Assembly (NCBI GenBank): GCA_012026975.1
Contig: VEPG01000090.1
Span: 1-63,890 of the forward strand
Length of the DNA: 63,890 nt
Direction: 5' to 3'
Source: Desulfuromonas sp.
GTDB taxonomy: Bacteria > Desulfobacterota > Desulfuromonadia > Desulfuromonadales > BM103
Shown: one piece after another, positions 20,535 through 55,387 of the stretch
Numbering within the stretch: the stretch's first letter is position 1
Layout of the letters: each line of letters begins with the position of its first letter
Program-made: the position numbers and the translations under genes
Notes under the pieces: model-generated
The model's database searches: none
The model's input: the letters and a program-made list of their open reading frames with translations, nothing else
What the model was told of the DNA's origin: nothing

Positions 20535-20810
20535 TCAGGCGATGCCGACCGTTGCGGGATCGATCGCAACGTATTCTCCGGTGCGCAGCTGGTAGAGTTC
20601 CGGGGGGAGCAGGCCGGCCTCGGCGAGGAGGACATAGACCGCCGCCAGGTGTTCCGGGGCGATGCGCAGGGCCAGCCCGCAGTCCGAGGTCAGCTTGCGC
20701 GGCACCGGGATCAGCAGGAAGGCCGCCTTGTGCTGCTTGAGCAACTGCTCCGCGCGCAGCACGCGGTGGATCGAATGAAAGATGGCGACGTAGTCCTGGT
20801 CGTTGACCAT
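20535..20810 (-). CDS. DUF3343 protein (putative Se/S carrier-like)
   Basis: The 91-residue protein matches the DUF3343 pattern: DYVAIFHSIHRVLRAEQLLK followed by LLIPVPRKLTSDCGLALRI, with the conserved cysteine in SDCG that has led to the putative Se/S carrier label. There is no signal peptide. The reaction is unknown; related proteins lie near selenium or sulfur-transfer genes, but here it is upstream of ffh on the same strand, 80 bp away, with a ribosome site GGGGTAAAGG. Confidence 0.75.
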   Translation of the reverse strand: MVNDQDYVAIFHSIHRVLRAEQLLKQHKAAFLLIPVPRKLTSDCGLALRIAPEHLAAVYVLLAEAGLLPPELYQLRTGEYVAIDPATVGIA

Positions 20811-20944
20811 TGCCTTTACCCCGAACGAAAGTGGCGCGCATCATGCCACGGCCGAAGCCCGAGAGCAAGTCGGCTGCGCAACAATCCGTCCGCTGTGTCA
20901 GCGGCACCGCATGAACTTTTGCGTCAAATTGTCTTCAACCGTTG

Positions 20945-21073
20945 TTGCATAAATGCAAAACGCCTTCTCGAAACCTGTCACCTCCCGCAACATGCCAATC
21001 TAAAGTATGTTTTTTGCGCAGCACCATATCACTTCCACGCCAACCGGCTCACGTTTTTTGCAATAATGCAAAA
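20945..21073. promoter_or_regulatory. Two TTGCA-N4-TGCAA palindromes, candidate activator sites
   Basis: Site A (20945-20958) reads TTGCA-TAAA-TGCAA. Site B (21054-21073) reads TTTTTTGCA-ATAA-TGCAAAA. Their centres are about 222 and 109 bp upstream of the -12 GC of the sigma-54 promoter at 21159-21173, the distance range of NtrC-type enhancer sites. The rest of the 20811-21158 gap is AT-rich and shows no gene. Confidence 0.7.
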
Positions 21074-21158
21074 GACCTGTGTCGGCCTGATGGTGGAGCA
21101 AAATCCCAAGTAACCGAAACTAAAGATATAAATTTCATGTCCGAATATTTTAAAACAT

Positions 21159-21173
21159 TGGTATAGCCTTTGC
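21159..21173 (+). promoter_or_regulatory. Sigma-54 (-24/-12) promoter for the alpha/beta-hydrolase-like gene
   Basis: TGGTATAGCCTTTGC has the GG and GC elements with exact sigma-54 spacing (TGG, four variable bases, TTGC). The transcript would begin near 21185, about 30 nt before the ATG at 21215. Confidence 0.75.
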
Positions 21174-21214
21174 TTGAACAAATGCCATCTTCTCCCATCG
21201 AAAGGATTTCTCAT

Positions 21215-21808
21215 ATGACTGCACATATCCAGGGGAATGACCTTCATTTCGACCAGGGCGGCACGGGACCGACGGTCCTCTTCCTCCACGACGACCCGGC
21301 AAAACAGGCGGCCCTGTTCCGGGATTGCTCCCCCCTGGTCGCGTCGAATCTGCGGGTGGTGGTCTCGTTGATTGCGGCTGACAGCGGCAGCCATCAGGTC
21401 GTCGCCTTGCTGAAGCAGCTCGGCATCGGCCGCGCCGTGGTCATCGCCATCGGCCAGGCCAACCACACCCTGATCGATCTGCTTGAACAGCACCCGGACC
21501 GGGTTGCGGCAGCCAGTTTCGTGGCCGACAAAGCTCTGGCCAGGGAACTGCGCAACCGCACCGACAATCCGCATATCCATGCGCTGCTCCGCAGCGGCCG
21601 CCAGGCGAGCGTCGCCAAGGCGGTGGCCCGAACCCGCAAACCCGCATCGGCCTACGGCGCGGTTCAGGCGTGGTCCACGCGCCTGGTCGACAGCTGTCGC
21701 GCCGGCATCAAAAACTGCGCGGGGCTACTCGCCCGCCTCGAACTCCCCGGCCTGATCCAGCTCGACGACGGCGAAGATGACGAGGAAATCGTGGCCGAGA
21801 CCCTGTAA
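21215..21808 (+). CDS. Alpha/beta-hydrolase-like protein lacking the catalytic nucleophile
   Basis: The 197-residue protein follows the alpha/beta-hydrolase plan: NDLHFDQGGTGPTVLFLHDDP at the N-terminus, then LLKQLGIGRAVVIAIGQANH, where family members have the GxSxG nucleophile elbow. Here the elbow reads AIGQANH, so the serine is missing, the oxyanion HG is HD, and no clear C-terminal catalytic His is seen. It looks like a pseudoenzyme, perhaps a ligand-binding or regulatory protein. I start at ATG 21215 (MTAHIQGND), with AAAGGA upstream, because the sigma-54 start lies after an earlier in-frame ATG at 21170. A strong terminator follows. Function unknown. Confidence 0.75.
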   Translation: MTAHIQGNDLHFDQGGTGPTVLFLHDDPAKQAALFRDCSPLVASNLRVVVSLIAADSGSHQVVALLKQLGIGRAVVIAIGQANHTLIDLLEQHPDRVAAASFVADKALARELRNRTDNPHIHALLRSGRQASVAKAVARTRKPASAYGAVQAWSTRLVDSCRAGIKNCAGLLARLELPGLIQLDDGEDDEEIVAETL

Positions 21809-21831: not shown

Positions 21832-21866
21832 AAAAGACCGGACTGAATCTTCAGTCCGGTCTTTTG
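21832..21866 (+). terminator. Terminator of the alpha/beta-hydrolase-like gene
   Basis: A 15-bp stem (21832-21846 with 21851-21865, core GACCGGACTGA/TCAGTCCGGTC) around ATCT ends in TTTT. A-rich bases on the other side could allow function on the opposite strand after polA as well. Confidence 0.85.
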
Positions 21867-21882: not shown

Positions 21883-22046
21883 TAGTGTCCCGTGCGGCTA
21901 ATTCTATCCTTTCAAATCGTGGTTCTTTCGGCCTCTGGCTACGTTGCGGCTCCTCGGCGTAGTCCCACTATGCCTGCGTCACCGCGTCTTGCCAGAAACC
22001 GAAAGCCCTCACAATTTGTGCAGGGAACTAACCGCACTGGACACTA
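21883..22046. repeat. MITE-like inverted-repeat element B at the polA stop codon
   Basis: The 22-base ends (21883-21904 and reverse complement of 22025-22046) share TAGTGTCC-GTGCGG-TA-TTC with three mismatches. The interior contains CTACGTTGCGG...CTATGCCTGCG text related to element A. The first TAG of the right end is the polA stop codon. There is no coding frame. Confidence 0.75.
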
Positions 22047-24716
22047 GTGCGCCTCGCGCCAGTTCTTGCCGACCCCGATCTCCACCGCCAGCGGCACCGA
22101 CAGCTCAACCGCCCCTTCCATGCCGTCACGGACCACTTCACGCATCACGTCAACCTCCGCCTCCGGCACCTCGAAAACCAGTTCGTCATGGACCTGCAGC
22201 ACCATTTTCGAAGTCAGCCGCTCATCAAACAGCCGCCGCTGGATATTGACCATGGCCACCTTGATGATGTCGGCCGCCGAACCCTGCATCGGGTAGTTGA
22301 TGGCGTTGCGCTCGGCATAGCCGCGGATCGCACCGTTCTGGCTGTGGATTTCGGGGACCGCGCAGCGCCGGCCGAGGATCGTGGTGACATACAGCTTCTC
22401 GCGGGCCTCGGCAATTTTCGCGTCCATGAACGCCTGAATGCCGGGGTAGTGGGCAAAGTAGGCGTCGATGAAGGCCTGCGCCTCACGCCGGCCGATCGTG
22501 AGCTGCTTCGCCAGCCCGAAGGCACTCATCCCGTAGATCACCCCGAAGTTGATGGTCTTGGCCTGGCGGCGCTGCTCATCCGAAACCATCTCCGGGAAGA
22601 CGCCGAAGACCTCGCTGGCGGTGCGCCGGTGGATATCCTCGCCACGGGCGAACGCCTCCTTGAGCGCCGGCACGTCGGCCAGATGGGCGAGGATGCGCAG
22701 TTCCACCTGGGAATAGTCCGCCGACAGCAGGACACAGCCGTCGGCGGGGATGAACCCTTCGCGGATGCGCCGCCCCTCCTCGGAACGGATCGGGATGTTC
22801 TGCAGGTTGGGATCGGAGGAGGAGAGCCGTCCGGTAGCGGTCACCGCCTGGTTGAAGGAGGTGTGAATGCGCCCGGTGGCGGGGTTGATCAGCTTCGGCA
22901 GGGCGTCGGTGTAGGTCCCTTTGAGCTTGGCCAGCGAGCGGTGGTCGAGGATCAGGGCGGCCACCGGATGCTCGTCGGCGAGGCTGGCCAGCACCTCGCT
23001 GTCCGTCGACCAGCCGGTCTTGGTCTTGCGTCCGCGCGACAGCTTCAGCCGCTCGAACAGTACTTCGCCGAGCTGTTTGGGGGAAGCGATATTGAACGGC
23101 CCGCCGGCAAGCCGATGGATCTCTTGCTCGAGAGCGGCAAGCTTCCCTTCCATCTCCTTGGAGAGCCCGCCGAGAAAAACCGGGTCGACCCGGACTCCGG
23201 TGCGTTCCATGGCGGTCAGGATCGCCACCAGCGGCATCTCCACATCATGGAACAGTCGCTCCTGGCCGGTCGCGGCCACCATCGGCAACAGCTTTTCCGC
23301 CAGGCGCAGGGTGATGTCGGCATCCTCGGCGGCATAAACCGTGGCCTTCTCGATCGCGACCTGGTCGAAGGTGACCTGGTGCTTGCCGCTGCCGGTCACC
23401 TCCGCGTAGCTGATGGCTCGGTAGCCGAGCAGCTCGCTGGCCAGGGCATCCATGCCGTGCGACTTGGCGGCCGGCTGGGCCAGGTAGCTGGCGATCATGG
23501 TGTCGGTCTCGATCCCCTGCAGTTCGATGCCGGCATGGGCCAGCACCAGGGCGTCGAACTTGATGTTCTGGCCGATCTTCTTGAGTTGTGGATTTTCCAG
23601 CAGCGGCCGCAGGGTGTCGATCACCAACTGGCGCGGCAGCTGCGCGGGGACGCCGAGATAATGGTGCCCGACGGGGAGATACCACCCCTCGCCGGCCTTG
23701 ACCGCAAAGGAGAGACCGACCATCTCGGCGCGCAGCGGATCGAGACCGGTGGTTTCGGTGTCGAAGGCAAAGCGGCCGGCCGCCTGAAGCGCCTCGACCA
23801 GGGCGGCCAGCTCCTCGCGCGTCAGCACGCAGCGATACCCTTCGCCGCTGGCCTGCTGTTCGCTGGAGAATTCCTGCAGCAGCTTGTGAAACTCCAACTC
23901 CTTGAAGAGCGCCGTCAGTGCCGCGCGGTCGGGGGGGGAGAGGGCGAAACTCGTGTAATCGAGATCGAGCGACACGTCGTCGTGCAGTTTGACCAACTGC
24001 CAGGAGAGGCGCGCCTGGTCGGCAAAGGCTTCGAGATTCTCGCGGCGCTTTCCCTTGACCCGGTCGAGGTTGGCCAGCAGATTCTCGACGCTGCCGAACT
24101 CGCGAATCAGCTCCACCGCGGTCTTCTCGCCGATCCCCGGCACGCCGGGGACGTTGTCCGAACTGTCGCCGGAAAGGGCCTGCACCTCGATGACCTGCGC
24201 CGGGGTGCCGCCGAAGCGCGCGGCAACCTCCTCCAGCCCGGAGGTCTGATCCTTCATGGTATCGAGCAGGCGGACCCGCTCGGAAACGACCTGCATCAGA
24301 TCCTTGTCGCCGGTGACGACCGTGACCTCCATCCCTTCGGCGGCAAAGCGCTTCGCCAGCGTGGCGATAATGTCGTCGGCTTCGAACCCGGGCAGCTCGA
24401 TGGCCGGCATGTTGAAGGCGCGCACTACGTCCTTGATCACCGGCACCTGCGGCACCAGGTCATCGTGCATGGCGGCACGGTTGGCCTTGTACTGCGGGTA
24501 GAGCTGGTGGCGGAAGGTCGGGCCCTTGCTGTCGAAGATCACGGCGAGGTGATCGGGCTGCTGCTCACGCACCACCTTGAGGAGCATGTTGACGAAGCCG
24601 TAGACCGCATTGGTCGCCACCCCCTTGGAGTTGGAGAGGTGACGGATGGCGAAATAGGCCCGGTAGATGTAGCCGGAACCGTCGATCAGAAAGAGTCGCT
24701 GGGGCGTGTCGGACAT
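22044..24716 (-). CDS. polA: DNA polymerase I
   Basis: Pol I fills gaps and removes RNA primers in replication and repair. From the ATG at 24716 (MSDTPQRLFLIDGSGYIYRAY) the protein has 890 residues. The 5'-3' exonuclease domain (1-290) includes GFEADDIIATLAKR and GDKDLMQVV. An active-looking 3'-5' exonuclease domain (about 310-490) has FDTETTGLDP. The polymerase domain has DYSQVELRILAHL, QAKTINFGVIYGMSAFGL and LQVHDELVFEVPE. A GAGG lies about 9 nt before the chosen ATG. The open frame further upstream lacks support. The TAG stop is part of repeat element B. It is divergent from lon. Confidence 0.98.
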   Translation of the reverse strand: MSDTPQRLFLIDGSGYIYRAYFAIRHLSNSKGVATNAVYGFVNMLLKVVREQQPDHLAVIFDSKGPTFRHQLYPQYKANRAAMHDDLVPQVPVIKDVVRAFNMPAIELPGFEADDIIATLAKRFAAEGMEVTVVTGDKDLMQVVSERVRLLDTMKDQTSGLEEVAARFGGTPAQVIEVQALSGDSSDNVPGVPGIGEKTAVELIREFGSVENLLANLDRVKGKRRENLEAFADQARLSWQLVKLHDDVSLDLDYTSFALSPPDRAALTALFKELEFHKLLQEFSSEQQASGEGYRCVLTREELAALVEALQAAGRFAFDTETTGLDPLRAEMVGLSFAVKAGEGWYLPVGHHYLGVPAQLPRQLVIDTLRPLLENPQLKKIGQNIKFDALVLAHAGIELQGIETDTMIASYLAQPAAKSHGMDALASELLGYRAISYAEVTGSGKHQVTFDQVAIEKATVYAAEDADITLRLAEKLLPMVAATGQERLFHDVEMPLVAILTAMERTGVRVDPVFLGGLSKEMEGKLAALEQEIHRLAGGPFNIASPKQLGEVLFERLKLSRGRKTKTGWSTDSEVLASLADEHPVAALILDHRSLAKLKGTYTDALPKLINPATGRIHTSFNQAVTATGRLSSSDPNLQNIPIRSEEGRRIREGFIPADGCVLLSADYSQVELRILAHLADVPALKEAFARGEDIHRRTASEVFGVFPEMVSDEQRRQAKTINFGVIYGMSAFGLAKQLTIGRREAQAFIDAYFAHYPGIQAFMDAKIAEAREKLYVTTILGRRCAVPEIHSQNGAIRGYAERNAINYPMQGSAADIIKVAMVNIQRRLFDERLTSKMVLQVHDELVFEVPEAEVDVMREVVRDGMEGAVELSVPLAVEIGVGKNWREAH

Positions 24717-41387: not shown

Positions 41388-43349
41388 ATGAGCCGGCACC
41401 TGTTCCGATTCGTCAATAACCTGCAGATCCGCTGGAAGCTGCTAGTGGTCGTCCTGCCGCTGGTGCTCATTCCGCTGTTTGTGGTCGGCTCGGTCGTCGG
41501 CTGGATCGCCTACCGCCAGGCACAGCTCGGCATTACCCAGGCAAGCATGGCCGACCTCGACCATCTTGCCTATTTTACCGTTGACCTGTTCGATTCCCAT
41601 CGCCGCCAGTTCGAGGTCTACCGCGAAGACAAGAAGCAGACCATCCAGAAGGAACTGGCCACGCTTTCCAACCTTGCCTACAACCTGGTCGAAAATCAGT
41701 ACCGCCAGCAGCAGGCGGGGCTGATCTACCAGGACAGCGCCCAGGATGTCGCCCGCCGGACCCTGAAACGGGTTCAGGTCGGCGAGACCGGTTATATCTA
41801 TGCCATGACCACCCGCGGCGACCTGAAGGTACACATCGCCCGCGAGGGGGAGAATGTCTACGACCAGCGCGCCGAAGACGGCCAGTACTTCATTCGGGCC
41901 ATGTGCCAGGCGGCCAAGACCGCGGCCCCCGGGCAGGTGCTCACCATCATCTACCCGTGGCGCAACCCGGAACTCGACGTCAAAGCCCGCCCGAAAATGG
42001 TAGCTTACCGTTACTTTGCCCCGTGGGACTGGATCGTCGCCGCCGGCAGCTACATTGATGAAACCTATGACGACCCGGCCGTCGAAGCCAAGGCCTTTGC
42101 CGCGCTGAAAGAACGACTCAAGGCAAAGAAGGTCGGGAAGACCGGCTACATCTATGCCATGGACCGCAAGGGGACGCTGACCATTCACCCCGAGGCGGAA
42201 GGCCATAACATCTACGCTTCCCGTGACAGCGACGGCACCCCATTCATTCAGCAGATGTGCGAACAGCGCGAAGGATGGATCCACTACCCCTGGCAGAATC
42301 CCGGAGAAGCCAGTCCGCGGCGCAAAATCGTGCGCTACCTGTATTACAAACCGTGGGACTGGATCGTGGCGGTCGGTTCCTACGAAGACGAGTTCTACCA
42401 CGAAACCAACCTGATCAAGGGACGCATCTTCAAAAGCCTCGGCTGGATCTCCCTCGGCGTCGGCCTGCTCGCCACCCTGCTGGTGTTTCTGGCCGCCAAG
42501 GTACTGTCCGACCCGCTGCGGCATATGACAGCGACGATCCGCGCCATCAAGCGCGGACAGACCAATCGGCAGATGCAAGTCGACAGCCGCGACGAGCTCG
42601 GCGAATTGGCCACCGCCTTCAACCGCATGACCAGCATCCTGCAGCGCAACCGCGAACTTGAGGCCAACCTCGCCCAGCAGGGGAAAATGGCTTCCCTCGG
42701 GGTGCTCTCTTCGGGGGTGGCGCACGAAATCAACAACCCGCTCGGGGTTATCCTTGGCTACGCCGCCTACCTGGAGAAGAAACTTGCCGAGGACGATCCC
42801 AACTACCACTACATCCATGAGATCAAGCGCGAGAGCAAGCGCTGCAAGAAGATTGTTCAGGATCTGCTCAGCTACGCGCGCACGCCGCAGCCGGAACTGG
42901 CGCCGACCGACCTCAACCATCTGCTCGGCCAGATCGTCGACTTTGCCGCCAATCACACCGACCTGTTCGGCGTGAAGATCATCCGCGATTTCGATCCGGA
43001 GCTGCCGCCGGCACCGATTGACGGCGACCAGATCCGCCAGGTGGCGATCAACCTGATTCTCAACGCCGGCTCGGCAATGAACGGCAAAGGGGTCCTCACC
43101 GTAAGCACATCCCGTGAGGAGGGCTTCGCCGTGCTGACCGTTGCCGACACCGGCTGCGGCATCACGGAAGAAGATCTCTCACGTATCTTCGAACCATTCT
43201 TCACCACCAAGGAACGTGGTACCGGCCTCGGCCTGGCCATTACCAAGCAGCTGATCGAACTCCATCATGGAACGATCCGCATTGCCAGTTCCCCTGGCGA
43301 GGGGACGACAGTGACCGTCCGGTTGCCGCTGACCAGAGAGGACCTCTGA
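41388..43349 (+). CDS. Double-Cache membrane sensor histidine kinase, partner of the NtrC-type regulator
   Basis: A 653-residue inner-membrane kinase. One membrane segment (about 18-42) leads into two successive sCache_2-type sensor modules, each with the text TGYIYAM followed about 70-90 residues later by PWDWIVA(A/V)GSY (about 138-235 and 247-340). A second membrane segment (about 351-375), a HAMP linker, HisKA with H446 (SSGVAHEINNPLGVI) and HATPase (NLILNAGSAM, DTGCGI, GTGLGLA) follow. sCache_2 domains of known ligand bind small carboxylates such as acetate and propionate. The stop overlaps the regulator's start (TGATG). I infer a short-chain acid sensor. Confidence 0.92.
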   Translation: MSRHLFRFVNNLQIRWKLLVVVLPLVLIPLFVVGSVVGWIAYRQAQLGITQASMADLDHLAYFTVDLFDSHRRQFEVYREDKKQTIQKELATLSNLAYNLVENQYRQQQAGLIYQDSAQDVARRTLKRVQVGETGYIYAMTTRGDLKVHIAREGENVYDQRAEDGQYFIRAMCQAAKTAAPGQVLTIIYPWRNPELDVKARPKMVAYRYFAPWDWIVAAGSYIDETYDDPAVEAKAFAALKERLKAKKVGKTGYIYAMDRKGTLTIHPEAEGHNIYASRDSDGTPFIQQMCEQREGWIHYPWQNPGEASPRRKIVRYLYYKPWDWIVAVGSYEDEFYHETNLIKGRIFKSLGWISLGVGLLATLLVFLAAKVLSDPLRHMTATIRAIKRGQTNRQMQVDSRDELGELATAFNRMTSILQRNRELEANLAQQGKMASLGVLSSGVAHEINNPLGVILGYAAYLEKKLAEDDPNYHYIHEIKRESKRCKKIVQDLLSYARTPQPELAPTDLNHLLGQIVDFAANHTDLFGVKIIRDFDPELPPAPIDGDQIRQVAINLILNAGSAMNGKGVLTVSTSREEGFAVLTVADTGCGITEEDLSRIFEPFFTTKERGTGLGLAITKQLIELHHGTIRIASSPGEGTTVTVRLPLTREDL

Positions 43350-44716
43350 TGCCTGCTGCCCGTCTCATGCTGATCGACAACGAGGCCGGCCTTTGCCGAA
43401 TGATGGAGGCCGTGCTGCGCGACCAGGGCTACCTGGTCAAGACTTATACCAACCCGGTGCAGGCGGTGGCCGATTTCACCGCCGGAAGTTTCGACCTGGC
43501 GGTCACCGACATCAAGATGCCGGAAATGGATGGCCTGGAGGTGCTCCAGCACCTGCGCCGGCGCGACCCCGAGATTCCGGTGATCATGATCACCGCCTTC
43601 GCCACCGTGGAGATGTCGATCCAGGCCCTGCGGCGCGGCGCCTACGACATGCTGACCAAGCCGTTCGAACCGGATGAACTGATCTACCGGGTGAAGAATG
43701 CCCTGCAGCACCACGCCCTGGTCGAGGAGAACCGTGAACTGAAGGAGGAACTGACCGGAAAGTTTCGCTTCGACCGGATCATCGGCGCTTCGGCAGGGAT
43801 TCAGACCCTCCTGGAGAGGGTCGCCAAAGTGGCGGTGCGCGACACCGGCGTGCTGATCACCGGCGAATCGGGAACCGGCAAGGAACTGATCGCCCAGGCC
43901 ATTCACCACAACTCGGCACGGCGCGATCGCAAGTTTGTCGCCGTCAACTGCGGGGCCCTTCCCGAGAACATTCTCGAGAGCGAACTGTTCGGCTACCGCA
44001 AGGGGGCTTTTACCGGCGCCACCGAGAACCGCCAGGGCCTGCTCGAAGCCGCCGACGGCGGCACCCTGTTTCTCGACGAAGTTGGCAACCTGCCGCTCAA
44101 CGTGCAGAAAACCTTGCTGCGCTTCCTGCAGGAGCAGGAGTTCCGGCGCCTGGGAGATACCAATCCGACCAAGGTCGACGTCCGCCTGATCTCGGCCACG
44201 AATTCCGACCTGACCGCCGAAGTCGTCAAAGGAACGTTCCGCGAAGATCTGTTCTACCGGCTCAACGTCATCAATCTGCATCTGCCGCCGCTGCGCGAGC
44301 GACGGGATGACATTCCGCTGCTGGTGGCACATTTCATCCGCGAGCAGAACGACAAGTTCGGCACCTCGTGCAAAGGGCTGACCCCCGAGGCGATGGAGGC
44401 GGCCTGTTCGTACAGTTGGCCGGGAAATATCCGTCAATTGCGTAATGTGATCGAGGCGGCGATGACCATCGAGAGCGGTGCATATCTCGGCCTGCCGGTT
44501 CTTTCTCAGTTTATCGTCACCGACCAGACCGGACCCTTGCCCTCCCAGGCCGACTACGAAGCCGCCTTGACCCGTTTTGAAACCGAATATCTCACCCGAC
44601 TGCTGCGCAAACATGGCGGCAATGTCGAAGCGGCATCCGCCGAGGCCGGCATGAACATGGCGACCATTTATCGCAAGCTGAAAAAATACGGGATCCGCAA
44701 GAAGGATGTGGACTAG
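43349..44716 (+). CDS. NtrC-family sigma-54 response regulator
   Basis: The 455-residue protein has a receiver domain with phospho-acceptor D54 (LAVTDIKMPE), an AAA+ domain with Walker A GESGTGKE, the sigma-54 contact loop GAFTGA and Walker B LFLDEV, and a C-terminal Fis-type helix-turn-helix (NVEAASAEAGMNMATIYRKL). All motifs for activating sigma-54 RNA polymerase are intact. It is coupled to the kinase by a one-base overlap. Seventeen bases after its stop begins the palindrome cluster of the next gene, whose sigma-54 promoter is the most obvious target. Confidence 0.96.
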   Translation: MPAARLMLIDNEAGLCRMMEAVLRDQGYLVKTYTNPVQAVADFTAGSFDLAVTDIKMPEMDGLEVLQHLRRRDPEIPVIMITAFATVEMSIQALRRGAYDMLTKPFEPDELIYRVKNALQHHALVEENRELKEELTGKFRFDRIIGASAGIQTLLERVAKVAVRDTGVLITGESGTGKELIAQAIHHNSARRDRKFVAVNCGALPENILESELFGYRKGAFTGATENRQGLLEAADGGTLFLDEVGNLPLNVQKTLLRFLQEQEFRRLGDTNPTKVDVRLISATNSDLTAEVVKGTFREDLFYRLNVINLHLPPLRERRDDIPLLVAHFIREQNDKFGTSCKGLTPEAMEAACSYSWPGNIRQLRNVIEAAMTIESGAYLGLPVLSQFIVTDQTGPLPSQADYEAALTRFETEYLTRLLRKHGGNVEAASAEAGMNMATIYRKLKKYGIRKKDVD

Positions 44717-44732: not shown

Positions 44733-44899
44733 TTGCAGGAATGCGAATTGCGGTTTTGCATTTCTGCAAGAATGCAAATTTACCGAAAATTTCACATAAC
44801 TATTTGTTATCAAATGATTTTATAAAGATACATGGTATTCTGCTCCTGTCTCTGCAGCTTGCGCTTTTCCTTTCCCGCCGGTTTTTTGCATTTCTGCAA
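44733..44899. promoter_or_regulatory. Cluster of TTGCA-N4-TGCAA palindromes upstream of the acetate-permease-like gene
   Basis: The first copy (44733-44746) is TTGCA-GGAA-TGCGA with one mismatch. The second (44754-44778) is a chain of three half sites, TTTTGCA-TTTC-TGCA-AGAA-TGCAAA. The third (44883-44899) is TTTTTTGCA-TTTC-TGCAA. The last two centre about 250 and 122 bp upstream of the -12 GC at 45013-45014. The remaining bases of the 44717-45103 gap are AT-rich and hold no gene. Confidence 0.8.
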
Positions 44900-44999
44900 G
44901 TCTAAATCGTCCAACCAATCCGCAGCCATAACCGCATAAATTTTATAAGCACCTGTTATTATTGGTTTTTATAATTTAAGAGCGACTTCGTCTCTTGAT

Positions 45000-45014
45000 T
45001 GGTACGGCGCTTGC
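45000..45014 (+). promoter_or_regulatory. Sigma-54 (-24/-12) promoter for the acetate-permease-like gene
   Basis: TGGTACGGCGCTTGC has TGG and TTGC with exact sigma-54 spacing, followed by T. The transcript would start near 45025, giving a leader of about 79 nt. Confidence 0.8.
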
Positions 45015-45103: not shown

Positions 45104-45901
45104 ATGAACAACCGGACTGTTTGCCCATATTACGGCTGCGACGAAGAAGTCTGCGATGTCGGCTGCGGCTACATCTCGCCGCACGATGCCAAGATGATCA
45201 TCAAGTTTTGCTCGGCCCAGTATAATGATTGCCACAAGTACCATGAACTGGCCGATCGCCTTGGCGAGCAGATGCCGGTCGCGGCGAGCATCTCGGCCAC
45301 CTGGATTGAACCTGCCCAGAGCGATCCACGCGCAACCCATGTCCCGGCGCTTGGACTCTTCTGCTTTGGCATCACCGCCGTCCTGTTTGCCTTCAAACAG
45401 CTCCCGGTACCGCAACCCGACATTTACCTTCTCAGTCTGATGATGATCGCCGCCTCGCTCGGCCAGATCATCACCGGCCTGACCGCCCTGCGCATCAACC
45501 CCATGCGCGCCGTGGCCTTTACCGGTTTCGGCCTGTTCTGGCTGTCACTGCTGGCTGTCGAACTGCTGCCGACCGCCGGTTACGGCAAACTCCCCGGTCC
45601 GCTGCCGCAGGGAGGCTATTTCGCCATGTGGGGGGTGTTCAGCCTGATCCTCGTCCAGAACTCCGGCAGCCTCAACCGTAGCTGCCAACTGGTGTTTTCC
45701 CTGCTTGCGCCGTTTCTTCTGATGTTGGCCCTGTCCCACATTACCGGCAGCGTGGCCCTGAAACATACGGCGGCGGTTCTCGGTTTTGCCTGCAGCCTGC
45801 CGGCGCTGTTATGCGGCGTGCGTCAGAGTTGGCAGGAACTGCGCGACCTGCTGACCCCCGGCCGCACCCAACAGGCCCACCAGGCCCAGCGGATTCGCTG
45901 A
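45104..45901 (+). CDS. GPR1/FUN34/YaaH (acetate permease)-like protein with Cys-rich N-terminus
   Basis: The 265-residue protein has an unusual soluble N-terminal module of about 55 residues with six cysteines (C7, C12, C17, C21, C36, C43; CPYYGCDEEVCDVGCGYISP). About six membrane segments of the acetate-transporter family follow (LGLFCFGITAVLFAF, SLGQIITGLTALR, FTGFGLFWLSLLAV). YaaH/SatP relatives carry acetate or succinate with protons. The Cys-rich part may bind metal or act as a redox switch. It has a GGAGG ribosome site and is driven by a sigma-54 promoter with upstream palindromes next to the sensor pair, pointing to carboxylate-induced uptake. Family call moderate. Confidence 0.75.
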   Translation: MNNRTVCPYYGCDEEVCDVGCGYISPHDAKMIIKFCSAQYNDCHKYHELADRLGEQMPVAASISATWIEPAQSDPRATHVPALGLFCFGITAVLFAFKQLPVPQPDIYLLSLMMIAASLGQIITGLTALRINPMRAVAFTGFGLFWLSLLAVELLPTAGYGKLPGPLPQGGYFAMWGVFSLILVQNSGSLNRSCQLVFSLLAPFLLMLALSHITGSVALKHTAAVLGFACSLPALLCGVRQSWQELRDLLTPGRTQQAHQAQRIR

Positions 45902-46493: not shown

Positions 46494-48266
46494 TCAATCC
46501 GTTGCCTGCACCGGCAGGAGCACCGTCACCGTGGTGCCCCGGCCGAGGGCACTGGCCATGCGCACCTCACCGTGATGGGCCTCGATGATCGACCTGGCAA
46601 TGAACAAGCCCAGACCGGTGCCAGCAGGCGCCTTACTGGTCACATTCGCGCGATAGAACTTGTCGAACACGTGGGCGAGTTGTTCGGGCGACATGCCGAC
46701 CCCCTCGTCGCGAATGATGATGCCACAGCGATCTCCGACAATGTTGGCACTGACATGGACGGAGCTCCCAGCGCCGGAATATTTGACGGCATTGCTGAGA
46801 AAATTCTCGATCGCCTGGGGGAGCCGTTTGCAGTCGGCCTGAATCTCCAGCGGCACGGCGGACGGTTCGAAATGAAAATGATGCGTCGCCACGCGCTTGC
46901 GGAAGCCGTCGACAACTTCCGCGAGCAATCCGGAAACATCGCATTTCTCCCTCTCGACGGTCATTTTCCGGCCGCTTTCCAGACGCGCCAGCTCGAGCAG
47001 TTCATCGACCATTTGCGAGAGGGTTTCCGCCTTGCGAATTATTGTCTTCAGCGCCTCCGCACGGTCATTTTCCTCAAGCGCGTTGGCCTGCAGCATTTCA
47101 CCAAAACCCAGAATGGCCGCCAGCGGCGTCTGGAACTCGTGAGCCACCGTGGAAACAAATTCGCTTTTCATGCGGCTGGCCTCACGCTGCGGACTCACAT
47201 CATGCATGACGCCGATAATCCCCGCCGGCTGGCCGTCCTCGTCACGGAACAACGTCTTGTGGAAGACGATATCATGCCGTTTGCCATCGACACCGGTCAC
47301 GGCATGTTCGTAGACGACGGAACGCTCCTCCCGCAGGGCTTCAGCATCCTTGCTCCGGTGCAGACTGGCGTCTTCCGGGGGATAGAGTTCCGCGGCGCTG
47401 CGACCGACAATCTCGCCGACGCCTTTCCCCCAGAAATCAGCGAACGCCCGGTTGCAGCCGAGCATCTTCCCCCCGGCATCCTTGTAGAAGACCGGCACCG
47501 GCAGATCATCCATCAGTACCTGGAGGAAATTCACCTGGGCCGCCAGACGCTTCTCTACCTGATGTACGTCGGTGGTCATCTGGTTGAAGGCATCGTTGAG
47601 CGCGCCGATCTCGTCGCGACGGTCGACCGGGAGTTGCAGGTCGCGACGCCCCTTGGACATGCCGTTGATCGCTCGCGTCAGGAGGGTAAGCGGGCGGGCA
47701 ATGGCCTGGGCCGCCGGCAGGGTCAGAGCAAAGGCAAGGATGCCGATCAGCAGGATGCCCACGAGGATTTCCCGAATGAGCGTGTTGACCGCCGTGTTGA
47801 TCGGCTCGGCCGAGATACCGATCCGCAAACTGCCGATGCGGCCGTCAAGCACCGGCACGGCAATGTCATAGATGAACTCACTACCGGTATCCAGACGCTT
47901 GACGACGGCTTCCTCGCCGCCGACGTAACGGTTCACCGTTGTCAGTTCGGCAGGGAAGTTCGTGCCGAACGAGTGGGCGAGCAACCCGCCGTCACGATCG
48001 ACCATCAAAATGTAGCGGATGTCAGCTTCCGCGGTTTGGTGTTCGTGAGCAAGGTATTGGAGGTGCAGATGGTTGTGTTCGATGAAATCTTCGGTGCTAA
48101 GCTCGGCAATGTGCCGGGCGATCGAGATTCCGCGTTTAAGCAGTTCGTTGCTGAGATCGCTGGACACGCGGGCGGCCACATAGAAACCGATGGCCGCACC
48201 GAAACAGACCACGACCGAAAGGGTCAGGGCAAGCAGCTTGAAACGCAACGGGAGATTGACGCCCAT
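46494..48266 (-). CDS. PAS-domain sensor histidine kinase paired with a PhnD-like lipoprotein
   Basis: A 590-residue membrane kinase with a first membrane segment (LLALTLSVVVCFGAAIGFYVAA), a periplasmic sensor of about 130 residues, a second segment (LVGILLIGILAFALTLPAAQA), HAMP, PAS (LMDDLPVPVFYKDAGGKMLG), HisKA with H376 (TVAHEFQTPLAAI) and HATPase (ENFLSNAVKYS, DEGVGM, GTGLGLFIA). It starts 5 bp after the binding-protein gene, so the two form an operon. This suggests that the lipoprotein presents a ligand to the kinase. No regulator gene is beside it. Confidence 0.9.
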   Translation of the reverse strand: MGVNLPLRFKLLALTLSVVVCFGAAIGFYVAARVSSDLSNELLKRGISIARHIAELSTEDFIEHNHLHLQYLAHEHQTAEADIRYILMVDRDGGLLAHSFGTNFPAELTTVNRYVGGEEAVVKRLDTGSEFIYDIAVPVLDGRIGSLRIGISAEPINTAVNTLIREILVGILLIGILAFALTLPAAQAIARPLTLLTRAINGMSKGRRDLQLPVDRRDEIGALNDAFNQMTTDVHQVEKRLAAQVNFLQVLMDDLPVPVFYKDAGGKMLGCNRAFADFWGKGVGEIVGRSAAELYPPEDASLHRSKDAEALREERSVVYEHAVTGVDGKRHDIVFHKTLFRDEDGQPAGIIGVMHDVSPQREASRMKSEFVSTVAHEFQTPLAAILGFGEMLQANALEENDRAEALKTIIRKAETLSQMVDELLELARLESGRKMTVEREKCDVSGLLAEVVDGFRKRVATHHFHFEPSAVPLEIQADCKRLPQAIENFLSNAVKYSGAGSSVHVSANIVGDRCGIIIRDEGVGMSPEQLAHVFDKFYRANVTSKAPAGTGLGLFIARSIIEAHHGEVRMASALGRGTTVTVLLPVQATD

Positions 48267-48271
48267 AAGGG

Positions 48272-49207
48272 TCAGCGATGGCTTTTGCTGTTGATGAAGT
48301 CGCGCATCTCGCGAATCGTCCCATAGGCGGCATCACTTGCCGGCACGAAGCGGCGGAGCATCATTCCCTGCAGGATCAGGGACCCTTCGGGATCCTCATG
48401 CATGGACAGCAGCGTCGTGCGCAAACGTTCACGCAACGGGGCCGGGATATTGGGACGCACCACCACGGGGGGAATGCCATAGGGGGCGGAGCGGGACAGG
48501 ATCCTGATTTTCTTGGCCAACTGCGGATCCTTGCGGATCAGGTACTCGTAGATCAGGCTGTCCACCGCGGCCCCGTCGACTTCCCCCTCGGCCACTGCGC
48601 GGATCGACTTGTCGTGGGCGGAGGTATAGATGACCATGCCAAAAAAGTGCTCCGCAGTCTCCCCCCGCTGTGCCAGCATGTATTCCGGCACCAGCTTGCC
48701 GCTGTTCGACAACGGATCGGTAAAGGCGAAGTTCCGGCCGCGCAGATCCTCGAGACTCTTCGCCGGGCTCTTGACCGGGACGATCATGTACGAATAGTAG
48801 ACCGTCTCTCCGGAGAGGGTTTCCGGCATGACCAACAGTTCCAGACCAAAGTTGTCCTTCCCCTCGACGTAGGGCCCGCCGCAGACAAAGGCCAGATCCA
48901 GTTCACCATCCTTGAGCAGCTGATTGAACTCTTGGTAGCTCCCCCGGTCGACGGTCATGACCGGGGTGGTCAGGTGCTTCTCGAGGTATTCCACCAGCCG
49001 TTGGTAGTAGATGTAGCCTTCCTTGGGGGTAATCATCGAACCGATGCCGAGGGTGATCTGCGTCGGGGCTGCCACGGGTTTTGCGATGGTCGAGGAAGAC
49101 GTGCGCTTGTCGAGATCGACCCGGACCGCCTCGCCACCTTCATTGCAGGCAAGCAGGCCAAACAGCAGGACCATCGCAACAGGGATTCTGGCAAGAAATA
49201 CAGGCAT
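48272..49207 (-). CDS. PhnD-type substrate-binding lipoprotein
   Basis: The 311-residue protein has a signal peptide ending in a lipobox (VAMVLLFGLLAC), then a periplasmic-binding-protein fold of the PhnD/phosphate-phosphonate group: LGIGSMITPKEGYIYYQRLVEYL, GELDLAFVCGGPYV, DLRGRNFAFTDPLSNSG and AEGEVDGAAVDSLIYEYL. It lacks ABC permease and ATPase genes nearby and is followed at 5 bp by a sensor kinase. It probably serves sensing rather than transport. PhnD-type proteins bind oxyanions such as phosphonate, phosphite or phosphate; the ligand here is unknown. Confidence 0.88.
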   Translation of the reverse strand: MPVFLARIPVAMVLLFGLLACNEGGEAVRVDLDKRTSSSTIAKPVAAPTQITLGIGSMITPKEGYIYYQRLVEYLEKHLTTPVMTVDRGSYQEFNQLLKDGELDLAFVCGGPYVEGKDNFGLELLVMPETLSGETVYYSYMIVPVKSPAKSLEDLRGRNFAFTDPLSNSGKLVPEYMLAQRGETAEHFFGMVIYTSAHDKSIRAVAEGEVDGAAVDSLIYEYLIRKDPQLAKKIRILSRSAPYGIPPVVVRPNIPAPLRERLRTTLLSMHEDPEGSLILQGMMLRRFVPASDAAYGTIREMRDFINSKSHR

Positions 49208-51298: not shown

Positions 51299-53473
51299 AT
51301 GCAGATAAAAATGAAAATCGCCGGTTTGGTACTGGTCCTCGTCCTGTTTACGGCACTCTCCATTGTCGGCATCGCGCTCCTCCAAAAAACGGTTCTCGGC
51401 AAGGACCTCGGCAGGGAAATCGATCGCCTGGCTGTCGACGAAGCCGGCCAAACGGCCCAGGATGTCTATCTGATGTGCGAGGCGATGCGCGAATCGGTCG
51501 AACAGTCGGTCGGCTACAGTCTCAAGATTGCCGACGACATCCTCAAACGGACCGGCGTCGTCTCCTTCAGCAAGGAAATGGTTGCCTGGACCGCTACCAA
51601 TCAATTCAACAATGAGCGCCGTGCCGTCGCCCTTAACAAGATGATGGTCGGCAGCCAGTGGCTCGGCCAGAACTCCGACGCCAAGGTGTCAAGCCCGGTG
51701 GTCGATGAAGTCAAGCGCCTGGCCGGGAGCACCTGCACCATCTTCCAGCGGATGAACGAGGATGGCGACATGCTGCGGGTATCAACCAACGTCGAGAAAC
51801 TCGACGGCACCCGCGCCATCGGCACCTACATCCCCCGCCTCAACCCCGATGGCAAACCCAATCCCGTGATCGCCAGCGTCCTCCGCGGCGAAACCTTCAA
51901 GGGCCGCGCCTTCGTGGTGAACGCCTGGTATGTCACTGCCTACCAGCCGATCTGGAACCAGTCCCGCAGCCGGGTGGAAGGGGTTCTTTATGTCGGCATC
52001 AAGCAGGAGAACGTCGAGAGTCTGCGCAAGGGGATCATGGACATCGTCGTCGGCAAGACCGGGCGGGTTTTCGTGCTGGGGGGGACCGGCGACCAGAAAG
52101 GCCGCTTCCTCGTCGCTCCGCGGGGGACCGAACTGGAGCTGCAGGCCGCGGCGAATCAGGATCATATCCAGGAGATTGTCGCCAAGGCCCTGGCGCTGAA
52201 AAGCGAGGGGGAATCGATCCCCGTCGAGACGGTACGCTATGCCGCCGCCGGGGGCAAGGGAGGCGATTCCGGAGACCGGTTTGCAGTCTTCACCTATTTC
52301 AAGCCGTGGGACTGGATCATTGTCGCCGACTTCCCTGAAGCGGACTTCATGGATTCGCGCACCCTCGTCGCCAGTGGTCTGAACAATATGATCGGCTGGA
52401 TTCTGCTGATTGCCGCCGTCGTCACCTGCCTGGCCCTGTTCTTCGGCTATCTGCTCGCCAGAGGGATCAGCACCCCCCTTCGCCAGACGGTTGACATGCT
52501 CGAGGGGATGGGCCGCGGCGAACTTGACCGACGCCTCAATCTCCAAGGGAAGGACGAAGTCGGCCGACTGGCCGTTGCCATGGACGCCTTCGCCGACAAC
52601 CTGCAAAGTGAAATTCTCACGGCTTTCAAAAAACTTGCCGAAGGGGATTTCACCTTTAAGGCCACCGGCCTGATCCGCGAGCCGCTGGCCCAGTCAAACG
52701 AGCGACTGACCCAACTGGTCGGTCACATTCGGGGTGCCAGCGAGCAGGTCGCCGAGAAGAGCCAGGCCGTCAGCGATAATGCCACCCGGCAATCGCGGGG
52801 AGCGATCGAACAGGCTTCGAGCGTTGAGGAGGTTTCCTCAAGCATCGTCGAGATGACCGCCAATATTCGTCGGAATACCGAAAATGCGTTGGAAACCGAG
52901 AAGATTGCCGTCAAGGCCGCGGTCGATGCCCGGGAAGGCGGCGCGGCCATGAATGAAACGATCCGGGCCCTGGAGGAAATTTCCAAGAAGATCGGGATCA
53001 TCAACGAAATTGCCCGGCAGACCAATCTGCTGGCATTGACCGCCTCCCTCGAAGCCGCCCGGGCCGGGGAGCACGGCAAGGGTTATGCCGAGGTGGCCGG
53101 TGAGGTGCGCAAGCTTGCCGAGCGGAGCCAGGCCGCGGCCCAGGACATCAACGCTCTGTCGGTCAACAGCATCGATGTCGCCGCCAAAACGGCCAATGTG
53201 CTCGGCATCATGGTGCCAAACATCCAGCGCACCGCCGAACTGGTGCAGGAAATTGCCGCCGCCAGCCGGGAGCAGGACACCGGCGCCGAACAGATCAGCA
53301 ACGCCATGCAACAGCTTGACCTGGTGATTCAACACAACGCCGCCTTTGCCGAGGAGATGGCCGGCACGGCCGAGGAACTGTCCGCGCAGGCCGAGCAGTT
53401 GCAGGCCGTGATTGCAGCACTCAAAACCTCGGCACAGGATCAGCTCTCCTTTGTTGCGCAGGAAGAGCGTTAA
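51299..53473 (+). CDS. Methyl-accepting chemotaxis protein with Cache sensor
   Basis: The 724-residue chemoreceptor starts at ATG 51299 behind AGGAGG; the open frame upstream is not used. A membrane segment ([22 protein letters not shown]) is followed by a long periplasmic Cache region (about 35-360, Cache_3/Cache_2-like: [40 protein letters not shown]). Then come a second membrane segment ([21 protein letters not shown]), HAMP and the signalling domain with the hairpin [20 protein letters not shown]. No methylesterase-binding pentapeptide is seen at the C-terminus. The PWDWI motif also appears in the Cache modules of the kinase at 41388. Confidence 0.93.
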
Positions 53474-53579: not shown

Positions 53580-54887
53580 TCACTCGGCCTTGACCGACTC
53601 CAGAACCAATTCTTCTTCCAGTGCGACCGGCACGGAGGCGGTCTTCTCGGCGGCCTTGGGACGCAGCGAGTTGGCCAGCATTGCACCGATCATCAGCAGT
53701 ACGCCGGCGACCACGAACGACATGGTGAAGTTGCCGGTTTTGGCCTTCAGGATCTCGGCAACCTTGACCAGCGCGAAGGCGCCGACGCCCCAGGCGGTGA
53801 AGAGCACGCCGTAGTTCATTCCGTAGTTCTTGACCCCCCAGAGATCCTTGGCAAAGGAGGGGAAGAGCGACAGATTGGTGCCGTAGTTGAAGACCATGAA
53901 GGTGACCATGAGGACCAGCACCAGGGCGTTGGAGTAGGTGCCGTCGACCACCGGGATGGCAGCGAACATCAGGGCGGCCTGGAAGACCAGCATGATCACC
54001 AGGGTGTTGGCGCGGCCAATCTTGTCGGAGACCACGCCGGCGATGATCCGGCCGGCGGCGTTACCGATCGACATGACCGCGACGACCAGGAAGGCCCATT
54101 CGCCAAGGCTGGCCTTGGCCATGCCGGTGGCGCTGCCGATGACCATCAGGCCGGCGCCGGCGCCGATGAAGAAGCAAACCCACAGGGTGTAGAAGCTGCC
54201 GGTTTTCAGGATTTGCGAAGGGGTCTTGTCTTCCACCGCCGACTTCTTGGCGACCGCCTTGGCGTTCGGATCGGCCACATAGCCGGCCGGTGGGTTGCTC
54301 AGCAGCATGCCGAAGGCGCAGACGATGATGCCAAAGGCGATGCCGAGGATCAGCATCGACTGCAGAATCCCGAACGATTTCAGCAGATAGTTAGAGAGCG
54401 GGGCAATGTAGACCGGGGCCAGACCGAAGCCGGAGACGACGATCCCGGCGATCAGGCCGGTCTTGGCCGGCGGGAACCAGCGCAGCGCCGGCGGGGTGGC
54501 GGCGGAGTAGCCGAAACCCATCCCCAGACCGACCAGCACGCCGAAGCCGACGATCCACATCCAGTAGTTGGTGCTCGTCGAAGCGACCAGAAAGCCGCTG
54601 GCGACAAACAGGCCGCCGATGATGCAGGTGGCGCGGGGGCCGATCTTGTCCTGCATGCGCCCGGCGATGATCATCGAGAAGGCGAAGGCCAGACAGGCCA
54701 GGGCATAGGGGTCGTTGACCGATGCCTTGTCCCAGGTGAAGGCCCCTTCACCACCAGCCTTGATCGAATCGGTGATCGCACCCTTGAAGATGCTCCAGGC
54801 GTACAGAACGCCCAGCGCCAGATTGATGGCCGTGCCGGAGAGGGCCACGGTCCAGCCGCGACGATAGGAAATACTGGTCGTGCTCAT
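53580..54887 (-). CDS. OFA-family MFS transporter
   Basis: The 435-residue protein has 12 predicted membrane segments of the major facilitator fold, with OFA (oxalate/formate antiporter) landmarks: GWTVALSGTAINLALGVLYAWSIFKG at the N-terminus, GFGYSAATPPALRWFPPAKTGLIAGIVVSGFG, and AAGRIIAGVVSDKIGR in the second half. Known family members move oxalate, formate, lactate or other monocarboxylates. I start at ATG 54887 (MSTTSISYRRG) with AGGAGG upstream; the ATGA overlaps the stop of a short leader ORF. Expression is inferred from a sigma-54 promoter with three palindromic upstream sites. Confidence 0.92.
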   Translation of the reverse strand: MSTTSISYRRGWTVALSGTAINLALGVLYAWSIFKGAITDSIKAGGEGAFTWDKASVNDPYALACLAFAFSMIIAGRMQDKIGPRATCIIGGLFVASGFLVASTSTNYWMWIVGFGVLVGLGMGFGYSAATPPALRWFPPAKTGLIAGIVVSGFGLAPVYIAPLSNYLLKSFGILQSMLILGIAFGIIVCAFGMLLSNPPAGYVADPNAKAVAKKSAVEDKTPSQILKTGSFYTLWVCFFIGAGAGLMVIGSATGMAKASLGEWAFLVVAVMSIGNAAGRIIAGVVSDKIGRANTLVIMLVFQAALMFAAIPVVDGTYSNALVLVLMVTFMVFNYGTNLSLFPSFAKDLWGVKNYGMNYGVLFTAWGVGAFALVKVAEILKAKTGNFTMSFVVAGVLLMIGAMLANSLRPKAAEKTASVPVALEEELVLESVKAE

Positions 54888-55087: not shown

Positions 55088-55102
55088 GCAACCGGCATAC
55101 CA
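55088..55102 (-). promoter_or_regulatory. Sigma-54 (-24/-12) promoter for the OFA transporter
   Basis: On the minus strand TGGTATGCCGGTTGC shows TGG and TTGC with exact sigma-54 spacing. The transcript would start near 55076, giving a leader of about 190 nt that includes the short ORF. Confidence 0.75.
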
Positions 55103-55198: not shown

Positions 55199-55387
55199 TT
55201 TGCATAAATGCAAAACAGGAGACAGGACAAGAACCTCACGTTCAGTTTCGCTGAATACCGTTCAATTTGGATAAACCCGCTTTGGTAGCGAATTTACGAG
55301 GCACGGCCCAGGGCCCTGTCGGCGTTTCGGCGAACGGATTTGCACCGATGCAACCTTTAACAAAGCTTTTTGCAGGAATGCAAAAAA
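55199..55387. promoter_or_regulatory. Three TTGCA-N4-TGCAA palindromes upstream of the OFA promoter
   Basis: The sites are TTTGCA-TAAA-TGCAAAA (55199-55215), TTTGCA-CCGA-TGCAA (55339-55353) and TTTTTGCA-GGAA-TGCAAAAAAA (55367-55387). The nearest centres about 118 bp from the -12 GC. The distal pair centres lie 30 bp apart, three helical turns. The last one shares its A-tract with the efpL terminator. The rest of the 54888-55565 gap shows no gene apart from the leader ORF. Confidence 0.8.

Follow-up and report, generated by a model that had tools for sequence, protein, structure and literature searches.

We propose that a 197-residue protein encoded in the window (the whole 63,890-nucleotide stretch of Desulfuromonas DNA that was analysed; Table 1) is a non-catalytic accessory protein, with a binding or regulatory function, of a regulon for the uptake of short-chain carboxylates, a reading to which we give a probability of roughly 0.6. 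Comparison of sequences supports both the architecture of the regulon and the loss of the active site well, and the binding or regulatory role is what these features together suggest. Within its order, the co-regulated family to which the protein belongs has lost catalysis repeatedly, and the protein is one such case.

Table 1. Coordinates of the features of the proposed regulon in the window.
Feature	Position	Strand	Basis or remark
Alpha/beta-hydrolase-fold ORF, 197 aa, without nucleophile, Asp or His	21215-21808	+	alignment, Foldseek, VIA-align
AIGQANH codons, at the position of the GxSxG nucleophile elbow	21446-21466	+	sequence and alignment
Sigma-54 -24/-12 promoter of the 197-aa gene, TGGTATAGCCTTTGC	21159-21173	+	pattern match; conserved in L003
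Distal enhancer-like palindrome, GTTGCATAAATGCAAA, 1 mismatch	20944-20959	.	centred 207 bp ahead of the -24 element
Proximal enhancer-like palindrome, TTTGCAATAATGCAAA, exact	21057-21072	.	centred 94 bp ahead of the -24 element
Terminator, a perfect hairpin with 16-nt arms and a 2-nt loop, separating the 197-aa gene from convergent polA	21832-21865	.	
AtoS/ZraS-like histidine kinase with dCache_2/sCache_2 sensor region	41388-43349	+	family scans
AtoC-like sigma-54 response regulator, putative activator of the regulon	43349-44716	+	
Palindromes of the SatP promoter, at 44755, 44763 (overlapping) and 44885	44755-44900	.	
Sigma-54 promoter of the SatP-like gene, TGGTACGGCGCTTGC	45000-45014	+	
Acetate uptake transporter, SatP-like (GPR1/FUN34/YaaH, NF038013), with a Cys-rich domain at its N-terminus	45104-45901	+	
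L-lactate-family (SfMCT, NF049980) MFS transporter, starting with the ATG at 54887	53580-54887	-	
Sigma-54 promoter of the MFS gene, TGGTATGCCGGTTGC	55088-55102	-	
Palindromes of the MFS promoter, at 55199, 55339 and 55369	55199-55384	.	

A hydrolase-fold protein without catalytic residues

The first-pass annotation had described the 197-aa protein as having an alpha/beta-hydrolase layout with AIGQANH at the nucleophile elbow and as being catalytically dead, and both statements were borne out. Alignment set its IAIGQANH against the CGISMGGY of an intact homologue (L010), with Gly in the Ser column, and the G-x-Nu-x-G elbow with Ser, Asp or Cys as nucleophile is absent (AIGQA versus GISMG). The beta-7 strand, LELPGLIQL, is retained and is followed by the terminal stretch DDGEDDEEIVAETL; since the chain stops after beta-7, it has no Asp loop, no beta-8 and no His loop. 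An acidic tail follows beta-7 in place of the catalytic acid, and the column of the His that normally follows beta-8 is gapped. The Ser, Asp and His elements are all missing by alignment, which supports the conclusion that the protein would be unable to act as a Ser-Asp-His hydrolase.

A Pfam scan of the protein returned 0 families, and its fold assignment therefore rests on homologues and structure. PF00561 reached its cut-off in four homologues (L010, L018, L020 and L006), full-length ones among them, and in an unlinked paralogue (L002), fell below it in L007 and L013, and was absent in L005 and in the 197-aa protein, whose NCBIfam signal was a weak one of 21 bits to a haloalkane dehalogenase model over residues 3-50. 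The structure model was built from a two-row alignment (the protein and L003) and had a mean pLDDT of 52, being best in residues 1-120. The central sheet with alternating helices was present, mainly in the N-terminal part of this low-confidence model; no usable pocket could be obtained from it. The top Foldseek matches were haloalkane dehalogenases and epoxide hydrolases, and the best VIA-align Z was 11.4 over 147 residues, although PDB families beyond those matched may exist.

The gene has ffh and polA as its neighbours, and the interval between these also holds a 91-codon ORF on the minus strand (20535-20810); ffh and polA likewise flank the counterpart of the gene in two more species of the genus (L088, L089). 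A recent frameshift or point lesion was ruled out because three congeneric species, whose proteins are 69-79% identical, have the same state, which is also met repeatedly elsewhere in the order; the intact-triad homologues are about 30% identical to the protein. Even inside the genus the elbow differs (Q/K/G, N/S). The same genome also encodes an intact GMSMGG paralogue (L002; G000, contig C68:35415-36179), which is without the regulon promoter.

Promoter, palindromes and terminator

The sigma-54 promoter previously assigned to the 197-aa gene was found again, with the -24 GG and -12 GC elements, as part of one of three exact matches in the genome to TTGGTATN5TTGCT, and the predicted transcription start of about 21185 agrees. 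Both palindromes that had been noted upstream also stand; they correspond to a 16-bp consensus, TTTGCA-N4-TGCAAA. These activator-like sites have a conserved spacing. The distal palindrome is at 208 and 210 bp in two other species of the genus, and the nearer one lies 93-108 bp before the -24 element at most SatP, MFS and hydrolase promoters in the loci scanned. Both palindromes and the -24/-12 block are conserved in the relative L003. Allowing at most 1 mismatch, we found the palindrome at 12 places in the genome (2.83 Mb), compared with 1 for the reversed-pattern control. Eight of the 12, including all three exact ones, are in the 63.9-kb contig and mark three promoters, those of the 197-aa gene, the SatP-like gene and the SfMCT-like gene.

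The strong terminator of the first-pass annotation is the perfect hairpin in Table 1, just outside the interval described there. A hairpin of unlike sequence follows the L003 ORF and is, by eye, its positional counterpart. The hairpin is separated from the stop codon of polA by a dispersed repeat of about 165-178 bp (21885-22062), found at 8 places of at least 145 bp in the genome at 83-100% identity, itself included, along with partial copies; by eye, it is absent at the corresponding position of L003.

A sensor pair and two carboxylate transporters

The promoter design of the 197-aa gene is the same as that of the two carboxylate transporter genes in the window, in agreement with the earlier suggestion of control shared with a carboxylate response. 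The SatP-like protein exceeded the cut-off of NF038013 (88.8 versus 50 bits) and fell below that of the E. coli-type model NF007941 (73.8 versus 297). The MFS protein, scanned with a start two codons longer than the ATG, exceeded that of NF049980 (405.6 versus 320 bits). In the part of the source available, SfMCT is described as transporting L-lactate, not pyruvate (PMC6573034).

The kinase and response regulator genes lie just ahead of the SatP-like gene. Cache sensor regions, such as that of the kinase, often bind small carboxylates. A second kinase (sCache_3, PAS), adjoining a PhnD-like substrate-binding protein, is encoded convergently to the SatP gene (46494-49207), and a Cache_3-Cache_2 chemoreceptor is encoded convergently to the MFS gene (51299-53473). 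No palindrome with 1 mismatch or fewer was found in front of the second kinase or the chemoreceptor gene.

Distribution of the regulon

The exact palindrome was present in 45 of 58 related genomes (124 sites versus 6 control sites, table summed), and 45 genomes likewise had one close orthologue of the regulator. The two occurred together in 42 genomes, the palindrome only in 3, the regulator only in 3 and neither in 10 (Fisher p 1.3e-6, in a test that ignores kinship). Orthologues of the kinase and regulator, about 60-80% identical outside the genus, adjoin the SatP gene at five loci (L108, L111, L112, L113 and L122) and the MFS gene at L120; at L118 the regulator alone is beside the SatP gene, the locus being cut by the contig end. 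We infer the pairing of regulator and palindrome from this co-occurrence and adjacency only.

Across the class, 108 of 277 genomes had the palindrome and promoter at fixed spacing, and the control gave 0 matches. A chance origin of the palindromes was ruled out by the controls in this genome, in the 58 genomes and class-wide. We surveyed what lies downstream at 40 hand-chosen class-wide places, 32 of them outside the order, which gave 42 pattern hits with two places counted twice. A SatP- or MFS-like ORF followed 27 of the 42 hits. After 11 others, the downstream sequence resembled the SatP-like protein at its Cys-rich N-terminus only and was, where readable, a short ORF of about 62-64 codons. 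The remainder were one repeat of a counted place and three hits without a match, one of which had 59 bases left. A hydrolase followed the palindrome and promoter at none of the 40 places. The same promoter design is found at transporters across the class and at hydrolase homologues within the order. Because no hydrolase was found at the surveyed places, the transporters look like the original targets of an old regulon, and the hydrolase would be a recruit of this order.

In the available parts of the literature searched, the regulon was not described, and nothing relevant was found there in the Geobacter and Pelobacter genome papers or in a sigma-54 survey (PMC12316311). In G. sulfurreducens, which is outside the order, the oxalate-formate antiporter gene GSU2490 was scored as RpoD-dependent in the available part of one study (PMC2725144), which counts against our reading.

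Recurrent loss of the active site in the hydrolase family

When 136 genomes of the order were searched with a profile and duplicates by genome were removed, the matches listed gave 76 sequences for a tree; weaker matches lie outside this set, so shrunken members may be missed. Among these, 25 unlinked paralogues formed one well-supported side (99/97) and 51 sequences were linked to the regulon: 40 by a promoter with a palindrome of 1 mismatch or fewer, six by a SatP gene directly upstream and five by tree position or partial evidence (L014, L015, L018, L141 and L152). The six with the SatP-then-hydrolase order belong to families f6, f12 and f20 (L017, L032, L169, L183, L024 and L197, in G026, G046, G131, G133, G032 and G040, respectively), and there the SatP-like gene and the hydrolase gene directly downstream are probably one operon. 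One of them, L169, was first labelled unlinked in the tree run and was reassigned from its upstream SatP gene.

By a hand table of the matches listed, a linked hydrolase and the response regulator occurred together in 31 of the 58 genomes, the hydrolase only in 1, the regulator only in 14 and neither in 12 (Fisher p 1e-4, kinship ignored). In one genome, G005 (88% complete), a linked hydrolase was detected and the regulator orthologue was not found.

The elbow Ser was lost in 25 of the 51 linked homologues and kept in 26, and the full triad was present in 20 and lacking in 31, whereas all 25 unlinked paralogues kept Ser, Asp and His (all counts among the matches listed). When the five members with weaker evidence were left out, Ser was lost in 22 of 46 and the full triad was present in 18 of 46 of the matches listed. 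Because 26 linked members keep Ser and 20 the full triad, the ancestral function may have been catalytic, which counts against our reading. The tree, from which the catalytic columns had been left out, requires no fewer than 8 changes of Ser state; this number holds for this tree, in which some forks are unresolved and L197 and L014 have long branches. The interpretation in the first-pass annotation was supported in part, as to the absence of Ser-Asp-His catalysis and the promoter design shared with the carboxylate transporters, and is widened here to a recurrent loss of catalysis.

The linked members form a graded series, in which column assignment is uncertain in the smallest members and in L179. 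At one end are full triads (e.g., L010 and L020). Others have Ser replaced by Gly (L018, L030, L174, L177, L178, L184 and L017) or by Ala (L144) with Asp and His kept, and seven Ser-to-Gly members of one subclade remain full length (270-275 aa). The Asp and His segments are gone in L006, L008, L009 and the genus of the 197-aa protein, and likewise in L007, but there with Ser. The shortest forms, of 137-165 aa (L193-L197), include four with the linked promoter and a fifth (L197) behind SatP. Read from this series, the probable order of loss was Ser first and then the Asp and His elements.

The linked proteins also have characteristic C-terminal tails: a [VA]A-type peptide in 24 of 50, an acidic stretch in 17 of 50 and either in 41 of 50, compared with 0 of 25 unlinked paralogues (among the matches listed). 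The tail expressions were picked after looking at the sequences, and L183, cut by a contig end, was left out of the tail count. The acidic tail is present in the genus of the 197-aa protein though the preceding segment is gone.

Selection on Ser-less members

Members without Ser are under purifying selection. NG86 dN/dS was 0.12-0.40 across eight pairs of such members, and all six bootstrapped pairs stayed below 1. The values were 0.12 in two full-length pairs, 0.14 (0.08-0.22) in a 137-aa pair, 0.16-0.18 in the L006/L008/L009 pairs, and 0.22, 0.34 and 0.40 in the genus of the 197-aa protein (bootstrap ranges together 0.14-0.61). Seven intact pairs gave about 0.03-0.25, comprising four linked pairs (0.034, 0.035, 0.127 and 0.178, where the value of 0.178 comes from few changes) and three unlinked pairs (0.148, 0.167 and 0.253). 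The dead members are therefore mostly inside the intact range, with the genus at or beyond its loose end. Constraint was weakest at the C-terminus of one pair, L004/L005, where dN/dS over the last 34 codons (residues 161-194) was 0.84. YN00 gave 0.10-0.11 for two genus pairs.

Proposed role and alternatives

The repeated loss of the active site in relatives within the order makes a role other than catalysis probable and, with catalysis lost in about half of the family while constraint persists, binding is our best guess for that role. If the protein does work without catalysis, loss of Ser and then of Asp and His would have been tolerated many times. We envisage that the Cache-domain kinase senses a carboxylate and phosphorylates the AtoC-like activator, which would then bind the palindromic sites that precede the -24 element by about 94-107 bp and open the sigma-54 promoters of the SatP-like, lactate-type MFS and 197-aa protein genes. 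Import of acetate and lactate would in this way be switched on together with the 197-aa protein, which may bind a ligand or a partner (a transporter, the kinase or a metabolic enzyme). Any ligand of the protein may be a carboxylate or acyl compound.

A bolder version of this proposal, which we regard as tentative, is that the hydrolase, once recruited to an ancient carboxylate-transporter regulon, repeatedly became a non-catalytic adaptor within the order by losing first the nucleophile and then the second half of its fold, down to a 137-aa half-domain with a recurring C-terminal peptide, and that it tunes the transporters or the sensor as a minimal subunit derived from a hydrolase. The C-terminal peptide (..RVA/..LAA, or an acidic DEE-type stretch) could then be a docking site or a degradation tag.

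The main and serious alternative, which we judge unlikely but not negligibly so, is that the ancestral protein was an ester or thioester hydrolase of carboxylate uptake that became dispensable in many lineages, the 197-aa copy being a slowly decaying remnant of no important function. Repeated loss of Ser and truncation to 137-198 aa would be expected of such decay, and the loose dN/dS of the genus (0.22-0.40) speaks for a slow form of it. The 14 of 58 genomes that have the regulator with no linked hydrolase detected, among the matches listed, also favor this explanation and count against an accessory role. However, the frame, the two palindromes and the promoter are kept in three species, dN/dS is below 1 in every bootstrapped dead pair, even that of 137 aa, and the seven Ser-to-Gly proteins of one subclade have not been shortened.

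We think it improbable that the 197-aa protein has remained catalytic, whether through another nucleophile or through some other chemistry in the same cleft. Hydrolase folds do accommodate varied chemistry, and Asp and His are kept in eight Ser-less homologues (L017, L018, L030, L174, L177, L178, L184 and L144), but the genus lacks both Ser and the segment for Asp and His, and its elbow is variable. It is more doubtful still, and very unlikely in our view, that the promoter is the functional item, with its sites titrating the activator and the protein a passenger: the two sites are far from the transporter genes, as titration would allow, yet purifying selection acts at the protein level.

Returning to the accessory role, pseudoenzymes are usually met singly, whereas here intact, Ser-less and half-deleted versions coexist in one order, and this co-regulated series is natural material for testing the job of the fold once catalysis is gone. 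The sensor pair, the acetate and lactate transporters and a 16-bp site at fixed spacing also make up a testable control circuit for carboxylate uptake. The class includes metal reducers, for which acetate is a main electron donor.

Comparison with known systems

Reuse of the hydrolase fold without catalysis is familiar from GID1, neuroligin and NDRG-type proteins. Those are different families, whereas here the loss recurs inside a single co-regulated family of bacteria and is accompanied by deletion of part of the fold. For L010, L018, L020 and the unlinked L002, the best NCBIfam models were those of PcaD-like hydrolases (TIGR02427/NF051488), with scores far below the cut-offs; compared with PcaD-like proteins (PF00561), the 197-aa protein is without nucleophile and without beta-8. 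RsbQ, KAI2 and D14 are hydrolase-fold proteins that serve signalling, and their likeness to the 197-aa protein, by description, is one of fold; KAI2, DAD2 and RsbQ are described, in the available part of the source, with a Ser-His-Asp triad (PMC3548789).

E. coli AtoSC was the best NCBIfam match of the window kinase and regulator, although the scores were below the equivalog cut-offs (443/714 bits for the regulator and 246/646 bits for the kinase), and the three window promoters drive the SatP, MFS and 197-aa genes. LurSR of Desulfovibrio, compared by description, is also a two-component system with a sigma-54 activator and several 16-bp sites upstream of a lactate operon; it controls lactate oxidation genes, and the word "hydrolase" is absent from the main text as far as available (PMC6456213).

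A portable Cys-rich module

The SatP-like transporter carries a Cys-rich module of about 55-60 aa, VCP[FY]..CDVGCGYIS..D....I..[FY]C (45104-45300 in the window), which in other families forms part of the MFS lactate transporter. At 11 places in other orders of the class, a small protein consisting of the module alone is encoded immediately after the same promoter, and further loci with the module are L234, L236, L239, L240, L242 and L262, and L120, L121, L258 and L263-L265. The module is a portable part of the carboxylate regulon.
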